Virus record (IMG/VR): IMGVR_UViG_3300008452_000999
Location: 1 to 32,395 of that record
Length of the DNA: 32,395 nt
Source: a virus
Reading direction: 5' to 3' (one strand)
The notes under the pieces were generated by a model. The model did no database searches, was not told the origin of the DNA, and saw nothing but the letters and a program-made list of their open reading frames with translations. Positions 28,184 to 29,813 of the stretch are shown piece after piece (position 1 is the first letter of the stretch; every line of letters starts with the position of its first letter). Both the position numbers and the translations under genes were made by a program.

Positions 28184-28463
28184 GCATATCCTCCAAATGT
28201 ACCCGGCTCTAAGGGATTCCGATAATAAGTTAATAGCAACTTTTTGGAGTATGGAAGCAGCCGAGATTTCTACATACAAGGCCGGACAAATGTCAGCAAA
28301 GGAGTTACTCAATATGCTTTACAAAAACCTTTTAACCAGTCCTGAATCAATCCGTAGGTGCAGACAAAAGCTGCAAGAGGAGTCGGAAGAGTTAAGGGGT
28401 ACAGTTTACTATCAAAAACAAAACGAAGGTAAAACAATCACAAAAAACATAAAACACCTATGA
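28146..28463 (+). CDS. Conserved phage hypothetical protein (LTSPESIRRCRRKLQEE type)
   Basis: A 105-residue helical protein. KEKVRHILQMYPALRDSDNK (residues 9-28) and LLTSPESIRRCRQKLQEESE (about 62-81) match a Bacteroidota phage/prophage family found beside replication and methyltransferase genes. The second motif has a basic recognition-helix appearance, so DNA binding is possible. It overlaps the methyltransferase start by ATGA (28460-28463). Confidence 0.7.
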   Translation: MWNQLLNTKEKVRHILQMYPALRDSDNKLIATFWSMEAAEISTYKAGQMSAKELLNMLYKNLLTSPESIRRCRQKLQEESEELRGTVYYQKQNEGKTITKNIKHL

Positions 28464-29485
28464 CACACGGATCTTTATTTTCAGGTATTGGAGGTTTCGA
28501 CCTTGCTGCCGAGTGGATGGGATGGGAGAATGTTTTCCATTGTGAATGGAATCCTTTCGGACAAAAAGTATTAAAACATTATTGGCCAAATGCAATTAGT
28601 TATGAAGATATCACAAAAACAGATTTCACTGTTCACAGAGGAAAAATTGACATCATCACCGGAGGCTTCCCTTGTCAGCCATACTCATCAGCCGGAAAAC
28701 GAAAAGGAAAAGACGATGAACGCCATTTGTGGCCCAGTATGCTTAGAGCAATTCGAGAAATTCAACCACGTTGGATTGTGGGCGAAAACGTTCTCGGCCT
28801 TGTTAATTGGTCAGGAGGGTTGGTATTCGAAGAGGTGCAAGCTGACTTGGAAGCTGAAGGGTACGAAGTACAACCGTTTGTTCTTCCTGCTGCAAGTGTC
28901 GGCGCACCTCACCTCAGACAAAGAGTTTGGTTTGTTGCCTACAATAACCGCATCATTTGGGGAACGAGGCGGGATGCTAAATCCACAAAGCAATCACGAT
29001 ACCGAGAAAGCATACTACCAATTACAACAGAAAGGACTACTCCCAACTCCAACAGCAATGGACTCAACGAATGCAACAGCGAATATGAAATCAACACAAG
29101 TGAAGAAACGATCAATGCACTTAGTAACTCTAAACAGATACATATTCAACAATCCATTACTGAACACTCCGACAGCATCAGACAAGAAAGGAGGATGTAC
29201 AAGGTCAAATCCAAAGTTACAATTAGGAAGCACTTTAGTAAACGAAATGCACGCAGTATTAAACCAACCAACTGGCAAAACTTCCCAACTCAATCCCCAA
29301 TTTGTAATGGAAATGATGGGTTTTCCTACCGACTGGACTCTATTACCTTTTCTAAATGGCGAAGCGAATCAATCAAAGCCGGAGGAAACGCAATAGTTCC
29401 GCAAGTAGTTTTTCAGATATTTAAAACAATACATCAATACGAAACAAAACAAAATGACAGTAGAGGTAACGTGCAAACATTGTAA
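28460..29485 (+). CDS. Cytosine-C5 DNA methyltransferase (Dcm-like)
   Basis: A 341-residue protein. Motif I is GSLFSGIGGFDLA (residues 4-16), motif IV GGFPCQPYS (68-76) with catalytic C72, motif VI GENV (108-111), motif VIII QRVWFVA (154-160), and the C-terminal motif X-like GNAIVPQV (309-316) after FSKWRSESIKAG. Motifs II (CEW, 28-30) and the middle also fit. The target-recognition region (about 161-300) is of low, Ser/Asn/Thr-rich character. The same DNA, in the +1 frame, encodes a second family-like protein (28590-29396). No cognate restriction enzyme gene is present, so it is an orphan enzyme, probably shielding phage DNA from host restriction. Confidence 0.9.
   Translation: MTHGSLFSGIGGFDLAAEWMGWENVFHCEWNPFGQKVLKHYWPNAISYEDITKTDFTVHRGKIDIITGGFPCQPYSSAGKRKGKDDERHLWPSMLRAIREIQPRWIVGENVLGLVNWSGGLVFEEVQADLEAEGYEVQPFVLPAASVGAPHLRQRVWFVAYNNRIIWGTRRDAKSTKQSRYRESILPITTERTTPNSNSNGLNECNSEYEINTSEETINALSNSKQIHIQQSITEHSDSIRQERRMYKVKSKVTIRKHFSKRNARSIKPTNWQNFPTQSPICNGNDGFSYRLDSITFSKWRSESIKAGGNAIVPQVVFQIFKTIHQYETKQNDSRGNVQTL
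28590..29396 (+). CDS. Overlapping protein nested in the C5 methyltransferase gene (+1 frame)
   Basis: A 268-residue frame wholly inside the methyltransferase gene; ATG 28602 is an alternative start. It is not a random shadow. It contains CLEQFEKFNHVGLWAKTFSA (51-70), LLIGQEGWYSKRCKLTWKLK (71-90), LLPTPTAMDSTNA (150-162), LNTPTASDKKGG (191-202) and SQLNPQFVMEMMGFPTDWT (232-250). These motifs resemble the C-terminal region (with LNP-x-F-V-x-x-M-M-G-F-P-x-x-W-T) of phage DNA methylase-related proteins, where LPTPTAxD stretches recur. The two frames carry different parts of what look like methylase-family sequences. I infer translation from its own start; frame use and function are unverified. 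Confidence 0.72.
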   Translation: MQLVMKISQKQISLFTEEKLTSSPEASLVSHTHQPENEKEKTMNAICGPVCLEQFEKFNHVGLWAKTFSALLIGQEGWYSKRCKLTWKLKGTKYNRLFFLLQVSAHLTSDKEFGLLPTITASFGERGGMLNPQSNHDTEKAYYQLQQKGLLPTPTAMDSTNATANMKSTQVKKRSMHLVTLNRYIFNNPLLNTPTASDKKGGCTRSNPKLQLGSTLVNEMHAVLNQPTGKTSQLNPQFVMEMMGFPTDWTLLPFLNGEANQSKPEETQ

Positions 29486-29813
29486 AAGCACTATAAAAAA
29501 AGTAACAATCGACAAAGATCAGATATTGGAGGCGGTATGCGAAGTGTACGGATTTAGCAAAGAACAGATGGTTAAGAAAAGCCGGAAGAGGTATCTCGTA
29601 GAGGCACGCTTTGTAGTAACATATTTTATCCATAAGTTTCACGGCAAGGTTTTAACTTACAATCAAATCAGTCAGGTAATAGGAAAGAACGACCATACAT
29701 ACGTATGTTATGCCTTAAACAAAATCAACGACTGGTCAAAGCACGATGAGGACTTGAGAAATAGGATAGAATTTATAGAAAATATCCTTGTTACTTACAA
29801 AGAAAGTGATTAA
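29454..29813 (+). CDS. Stand-alone DnaA domain IV-like protein with CxxC N-terminus
   Basis: A 119-residue protein. Residues 7-10 (CKHC) suggest a small metal-binding knuckle. From about residue 22 the pattern follows the C-terminal DnaA duplex-DNA-binding domain: ILEAVCEVYGFSKEQM, KKSRKRYLVEARFVVTYFIH (41-60), LTYNQISQVIGKNDHTYV (67-84) and ALNKI (87-91). The DHTxV signature and the basic helix before it are diagnostic. There is no AAA+ domain, so it can bind DNA but not act as a full initiator; it could compete with or guide host DnaA. It overlaps the methyltransferase by 32 bases and starts in an ACAAAACAAAATG context. Confidence 0.8.
   Translation: MTVEVTCKHCKSTIKKVTIDKDQILEAVCEVYGFSKEQMVKKSRKRYLVEARFVVTYFIHKFHGKVLTYNQISQVIGKNDHTYVCYALNKINDWSKHDEDLRNRIEFIENILVTYKESD

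Follow-up and report, generated by a model that had tools for sequence, protein, structure and literature searches.

In the virus genome analysed here, 807 nt code on one strand for two proteins in two reading frames, and this nested arrangement recurs and is conserved across phages and prophages with hosts from several phyla. To our knowledge, it is uncommon for the two products of a long same-strand overlap both to be widely conserved, and such cases are difficult to demonstrate. The longer frame, alpha, encodes a predicted C5-cytosine DNA methyltransferase chain, and beta lies in the +1 frame inside it. Very probably, they represent one C5-cytosine DNA methyltransferase encoded as two proteins by the same DNA and assembling into a working enzyme. 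Under the proposed mechanism, alpha (frame 0) would provide motifs I-VIII, which form the domain for SAM binding and catalysis, as well as motif X, the closing helix. Beta, initiated at a start codon of its own within alpha and read in +1, would bring the motif-IX block and the target-recognition modules missing from alpha. The pair would form an active methyltransferase. Its likeliest role is that of an orphan methylase of the phage, marking the phage's DNA and perhaps shielding it from host restriction.

The window, that is, the whole stretch analysed, is the IMG/VR virus record IMGVR_UViG_3300008452_000999 (32,395 bases). PHROGs matches to a terminase large subunit, a portal protein and a tape-measure protein further upstream of the locus indicate that it is a tailed-phage genome or a fragment of one. 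The neighbours of alpha and beta include, again by PHROGs matches, an Erf-like annealing protein, a replication initiation protein and a NinG/Rap-like endonuclease; no restriction enzyme was named by PHROGs among the 20 window proteins scanned. The start of alpha shares an ATGA overlap with the preceding ORF, and its 3' end extends 32 nt into the next (29454-29813). The latter is small, matches only phrog_16091 (unknown function) in PHROGs, and has a sequence that we take to be reminiscent of the DnaA C-terminal DNA-binding domain.

The initial annotation had delimited both ORFs and quoted the stretches LLPTPTAMD, LNTPTASDKKGG, LNPQFVMEMMGFPTDWT and GNAIVPQV. All were found as quoted, with beta in +1 relative to alpha. 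The features are listed below.

28460..29485, + strand: alpha, putative C5-cytosine methyltransferase subunit, 341 aa, motifs I-VIII and X (PF00145, phrog_363, phrog_116, AF2 model against M.HhaI)
28475..28495, + strand: alpha motif I, LFSGIGG, presumed SAM binding ((nearly) invariant in 37 aligned alphas)
28590..29396, + strand: beta, putative +1-frame subunit, 268 aa, nested in alpha (ORF, phrog_1008, conservation in relatives)
28661..28687, + strand: alpha motif IV, GGFPCQPYS, presumed catalytic Cys (invariant in 37 aligned alphas)
28761..28916, + strand: beta residues 58-109, conserved N-terminal region over alpha motifs VI-VIII (beta alignment)
28784..28792, + strand: alpha motif VI, ENV (invariant in 37 aligned alphas)
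28932..29273, + strand: beta residues 115-228, three modules of about 40 aa, proposed target-recognition region (mosaic in 133 betas; codon positions)
28958..29269, + strand: alpha residues 167-270, low-complexity, Asn/Ser/Thr-rich, putative linker (AF2 pLDDT <50; poor alignability)
29289..29339, + strand: beta motif-IX-like block, LNPQFVMEMMGFPTDWT (mostly invariant in 37 betas; position; weak profile match)
29384..29407, + strand: alpha motif X, GNAIVPQV (alpha alignment)

About the same DNA as alpha motif IV reads EASLVSHTH in the beta frame, the conserved pattern of beta 58-109 is FNHVGLWAKTF...LLIG..GWYS..CKLTWKLKGTK..R, and beta terminates at 29396, within alpha motif X.

Selection on the two reading frames

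Relatives were selected through either protein. The beta-selected set began as 80 loci and the window; merging of 14 that had an identical alpha reduced it to 67 distinct sequences; 61 of these were kept (both frames closed, alpha >700 nt, matched from residue 1), and 60 entered the shuffles after exclusion of L004, whose beta is interrupted. Dereplication at 8% gave 37 sequences, window included. The bias of selecting by beta was countered by repeating the analysis with alpha-found relatives, at least 14 contigs being common to both sets. These 80 alpha-selected viral loci are the best 80 of at least 600 candidates and are therefore close relatives; 76 of them had a complete alpha matched from residue 1 and yielded 38 sequences, including the window, for synonymous diversity.

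Synonymous codons were permuted within alpha, which preserves both the protein and its codon use. For the window alone, every one of 200 shuffles introduced stops into the beta frame, 6.8 on average. The full set of 60 loci, made up of the window and 59 beta-selected relatives, averaged 7.66 stops (lowest locus mean 4.54), and 2 of 12,000 shuffles left the beta frame open. The pairwise identity of the N-terminal part of beta was 0.613 in the 37 dereplicated sequences versus 0.392 ± 0.002 in shuffles. When single genes were shuffled 500 times each, P was 0.000 for L162 and L164, 0.006 for L163, 0.012 for L171 and 0.040 for L170, the signal being weaker in some distant phages; the one-chain control, L167, gave P 0.51. 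The alpha of L165 was not recognised by the motif rule in this part.

The initial annotation had also held that both frames are maintained, and the +1 frame is indeed kept in all 80 alpha-selected viral loci (best 80 of at least 600): every +1 stretch is open and matches the beta profile. The longest stop-to-stop stretch in these loci spans 210-359 codons in +1 versus 28-131 codons in +2, used as an internal control. Damaged copies were found in either gene: among the 67 distinct beta-selected sequences, beta is broken in L004 and alpha in L044, L045 and L078, and in one alpha-selected locus (L158) alpha has only 219 codons.

The synonymous diversity of alpha at conserved residues (38 alpha-selected sequences) is 0.515 before the overlap and 0.492 after it. 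It drops to 0.279 over alpha 101-160, which corresponds to the conserved beta 58-109 (P 7e-6), and to 0.141 over alpha 274-302, which covers the IX-like block (P 1e-5). Over alpha 52-100, corresponding to about beta 8-56, it is 0.482, with no significant drop (P 0.21). The codon-position comparison proposed earlier thus reveals lowered synonymous variation over 101-160 and 274-302 but no significant constraint over 52-100, and constraint by beta over its whole length is unsupported in the latter interval. Over alpha 274-302, the third position (0.132) is less variable than the first (0.271), the opposite of normal coding. Over beta 145-180, variability is 0.585 at the beta third position and 0.320 at the beta second, which is the alpha third. 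Given that the beta third position is the most variable in the middle, beta dictates the sequence there and alpha follows, in line with the earlier proposal that one product has an Asn/Ser/Thr-rich middle under constraint from the other.

Each frame is open and subject to purifying selection, which for beta is seen from about residue 58 onward. Ownership of the code changes along the overlap: alpha first, beta in the middle and both at the end. The earlier view that this is not a random shadow frame is borne out by the synonymous shuffles, the +2 control and the lost synonymous variation, and we reject a chance shadow ORF on these grounds.

Properties of the two chains

Alpha matches PF00145 over residues 2-325 (E 3.3e-49) and, in PHROGs, phrog_363 and phrog_116. 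Its AF2 model (mean pLDDT 62.6, pTM 0.63) aligns to M.HhaI over 207 residues (Z 19.2, rmsd 3.1). By these matches, alpha is assigned to the catalytic family of C5-cytosine DNA methyltransferases, with motifs I, IV, VI, VIII and X. One-chain C5 enzymes carry a target-recognition region and motif IX, of the LTPRExxRLQGFP type, at about the position of alpha 167-270. This part of alpha is predicted to be disordered (AF2, pLDDT <50 throughout) and is poorly alignable across relatives. By-eye inspection of the alpha alignment found no LTPRExxRLQGFP-type segment in alpha; one is present in L166, L172 and L167. With 167-270 predicted disordered and this segment lacking, alpha as a one-chain C5-methyltransferase was rejected. 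We read its Asn/Ser-rich middle as a putative linker, a shadow of beta coding.

Residues 17-250 of beta match phrog_1008, 'DNA methyltransferase' (1.1e-25, profile 35-279 of 329). Pfam gave no family at cut-off for any of the 8 betas scanned. Searches of the sequences of solved structures returned nothing credible with beta (best E 0.26), and with profile A4 the best match was an antibody chain (E 0.055). The AF2 model of beta, built from 37 sequences, is poor (mean pLDDT 51.4, pTM 0.22), so no fold search was made from it. Conservation in beta peaks at LNPQFVMEMMGFPTDWT, most of whose residues are invariant across 37 sequences. When betas were compared by profile with three one-chain enzymes, the single match fell exactly on motif IX of the latter and was weak (19 columns, E 0.12, probability 0.5%); the putative assignment of this block to motif IX is made mainly because of its position.

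Two gene pairs, 067a/067b of Arthrobacter phage ArV1 and gp6/gp5 of Mycobacterium phage Firecracker, have a shorter overlap in which alpha ends after motif VIII. In their betas (067b and gp5), the IX-like block directly precedes motif X (LKALGNGVVPQQ; IIGNGVCPQQ). These betas match positions 424-494 (ArV1, E 1.1e-6) and 441-482 (Firecracker, E 9e-6) of phrog_116, a methyltransferase family of which the window alpha spans positions 208-500; in Firecracker, the matched residues (136-176 of gp5) include the IX-like block as well as motif X. This evidence points to beta being a second subunit of the same methyltransferase.

Between its N-terminal region and the IX-like block, beta consists of consecutive modules, each some 40 residues long (median 40, interquartile 36-44), with approximate, pattern-based borders that we placed at (L/M)xTP-type turns. 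The window beta has three, starting LLPTITAS, LLPTPTAMD and LLNTPTASD, the third cut too early. In 133 betas, freed of some exact duplicates only, we delimited 397 modules, 2 to 5 per beta (one beta has 1), which fall into 85 clusters at 60% identity and occur in 94 different orders. The cluster LPTPTAMDSTNAT..., to which the second window module belongs, comprises 76 modules, which have 48 different neighbour contexts and stand first, second or third in their strings. Judging from this mosaic, the modules are probably the target-recognition region.

A broader reading, towards which we lean only slightly, is that in many phage methyltransferases, with hosts of several phyla, the +1 frame over the catalytic gene encodes a DNA-reading subunit built from mix-and-match modules of about 40 residues, and target specificity would shift by shuffling double-coded cassettes. 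The catalytic subunit would tolerate such shuffling because the alpha stretch beneath is merely a stop-free, disordered linker. This provides a testable model for target-sequence change in an orphan phage methylase. For annotation, the activity of the catalytic subunit alone should not be presumed.

Translation start, distribution and alternative explanations

Two candidate starts for beta occur in the window, ATG 28590 and ATG 28602 (beta Met5). The start given in the initial annotation, 28590, is possible, but the first beta-frame ATG of the commonest relatives lies 15 nt further in; it is at alpha offset 145 in 34 of 61 loci. The first beta-frame ATG follows the upstream beta-frame stop by 1-43 codons, mostly ≤10, in 61 of 61 loci. 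A Shine-Dalgarno site lies inside alpha before the beta start in most of 13 Firmicutes relatives (of 14 loci, L185 was left out because it is Bacteroidetes-like). The mean hybridisation energy with the 16S tail was -10.3 kcal/mol for the hand-picked beta start codons versus -4.5 kcal/mol for 585 other start triplets (P 8e-7); taken singly, 4 of the 13 loci are unremarkable, 12-70% of their own other start triplets scoring equally well or better. Bacteroidetes-type contexts had no obvious Shine-Dalgarno by eye. In the window itself, we infer that beta is initiated internally.

Using tblastn, the window beta was found in 63 phage records and the beta of Acinetobacter phage ABMM1 in 114, 38 of them at ≥80% query coverage. 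Among 11 distant phage loci, hand-picked from the alpha and beta match lists, 8 have beta in +1: Bacteroides BS-TP4, Lacticaseibacillus R23.9, Paenibacillus Tadhana, Acinetobacter ABMM1, a marine autographivirus, Escherichia Dru_SM5, Synechococcus S-H1 and a spring-water podovirus. Beta is absent in the other three, Lactococcus D7138, Streptococcus Javan336 and Nostoc N1, which have a motif-IX-type segment in the alpha chain itself. In bacterial genomes, alpha overlaps beta by >150 nt in +1 at 78 of 80 beta-selected loci (best 80 of 253), including several Bacteroides loci with alpha interrupted and beta open. Of the other two, L194 contains a run of N that confuses the frames, although both proteins are visible, and L213 has a broken alpha. 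Beta was in +1 in all 63 further loci, 51 of them reached via a Bacteroides alpha and 12 hand-picked from earlier loci. Plasmid records carried beta in 4 of 72,556 cases. In Tadhana, ArV1 and Firecracker, the annotation gives each of the two ORFs as a gene of its own. In Escherichia phage Dru_SM5 (L169), beta (739-1533) alone is annotated, and the overlapping alpha frame (615-1568, PPCQPF) is unannotated. A two-chain enzyme is a possible reason for such paired, overlapping 'DNA methyltransferase' genes and for the one-only annotation.

We find it scarcely credible that the +1 frame yields no protein and passively shadows a methyltransferase gene under strong conservation. Some similarity passes to any frame that overlaps the highly conserved alpha (shuffles keep 39% identity in the N-terminal part of beta), and the near-normal synonymous variation over alpha 52-100 would fit; however, the expected stops are absent, no +2 control stretch in the 80 loci exceeds 131 codons, alpha retains a synonymous diversity of 0.14 at the IX-like block, beta is conserved where alpha is of low complexity, and most of the 13 Firmicutes loci have an internal Shine-Dalgarno. 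Were beta instead reached by +1 ribosomal frameshifting, the products would be a fusion of the alpha N-terminus with beta and full-length alpha. The frames overlap over most of their length, which makes a frameshift workable at many places after the beta frame opens, and the Bacteroidetes-type contexts with no Shine-Dalgarno apparent by eye would agree with it. We nevertheless regard frameshifting as quite unlikely, considering the beta-frame ATG that follows the upstream stop in 61 of 61 loci, the Shine-Dalgarno sites at Firmicutes beta starts and the separate gene annotations in Tadhana, ArV1 and Firecracker.

Both proteins might also be made with beta as an accessory factor whose target is not alpha, serving in regulation or counter-defence rather than as a methyltransferase subunit. 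The lack of a Pfam match for beta, the PF00145 match of alpha over almost the whole domain and the different open +1 frame of some one-chain methylases are consistent with such a role. Against these stand the betas of ArV1 and Firecracker, which hold motif X and match the last part of the methyltransferase profile, the three fetched phages with motif IX in alpha, which are without beta, and the alpha model, which is without a folded recognition region; an accessory beta thus appears very unlikely. A methyltransferase assembled from alpha and beta is the reading that we prefer.

Some loci depart from the common layout. In seven from Bacteroides/Parabacteroides (L209, L211, L212, L214, L216, L217 and L225, with L209/L211 and L216/L217 as near-identical pairs), the alpha frame is broken by TGA alone, with 19 internal TGA and 0 internal TAA/TAG. 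Sixteen of the 19 are at Trp positions of relatives (LAAE*MGW, FRG*RG, DDP*N, FSR*RQ), beta is open, and the alpha catalytic segments are recognisable. It is possible that TGA is read as Trp or that alpha decays with beta kept. A tRNA scan found no tRNA genes in three 18-kb neighbourhoods of Bacteroides relatives, and a code-4 ORF scan was uninformative on TGA as Trp because shadow frames dominate. Six viral contigs (L302, L309, L313, L314, L333 and L340) have one or two in-frame TGA in alpha with motif X still downstream; beta is TGA-free in five, and L314 has one. In L248, a Candidatus Bacteroides pullicola MAG, the frames swap partners near locus position 2700-2830, the beta-start ORF ending with motif X and the IX-like block lying in the third frame; either the assembly contains an indel here or the frames have truly been exchanged.

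Long +1 ORFs of another kind occur over the C5-methyltransferases of L166 (Lactococcus phage D7138), L172 (Streptococcus phage Javan336), L274 and L276, with 165, 161, 135 and 184 codons, respectively, exceeding nearly all of 500 synonymous shuffles (P 0.000, 0.004, 0.000 and 0.000). Three of the four have a motif-IX-type segment in the same chain; none was found by pattern in L276. The D7138 and Javan336 ORFs have a common CSLSDILEEN-type sequence, and L274 and L276 are not independent because they were found through this type of +1 ORF. These frames may encode a second, different overlapping protein.

Comparison with known methyltransferases

Two-subunit C5-methyltransferases are a known kind of enzyme. 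M.EcoHK31I targets YGGCCR and M.AquI targets CYCGRG. The small-subunit gene of M.EcoHK31I was reportedly placed by Lee et al. in 1995 within the large-subunit gene, in another frame; as in that layout, the window beta is nested in alpha in another frame. The relevant passages of PMC3404938 assign motifs I-VIII and X, together with the predicted target-recognition domain, to the large subunit of M.EcoHK31I and motif IX to the small one. The passages on EcoHK31I that were examined do not mention reading frames. In the window pair, motif X is on alpha; the block on beta is IX-like by its place, with a weak profile match to motif IX. Unlike in those passages, the middle of the window alpha is a putative linker and the probable recognition modules are in beta. 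For M.AquI, the same source describes a split between motifs VIII and IX in the variable region, with IX-X on the small subunit (PMC3404938). The ArV1 067a/067b and Firecracker gp6/gp5 pairs are also split between motifs VIII and IX, whereas in the window motif X is in alpha and beta is entirely nested.

Paenibacillus phage Tadhana gp54/gp55 has the same nested +1 arrangement with both ORFs annotated, and PHROG 1008 and Tadhana represent the same beta family, under annotations that say 'DNA methyltransferase' and give no subunit role. Passages on methyltransferases in a review on overlapping virus genes deal with a plant-virus domain (PMC8227390). The literature searched contained no recognisable description of the alpha/beta dual coding, which is weak evidence of absence given that most subscription journals were outside the search; neither its breadth nor module shuffling was found described there. 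Multispecific phage C5-methyltransferases consist of one chain in one frame. Those of Bacillus phages have tandem recognition domains for several target sequences (PMC8936443). The window enzyme resembles them in having several tandem modules and differs in that its putative modules are on a separate chain encoded in the +1 frame.
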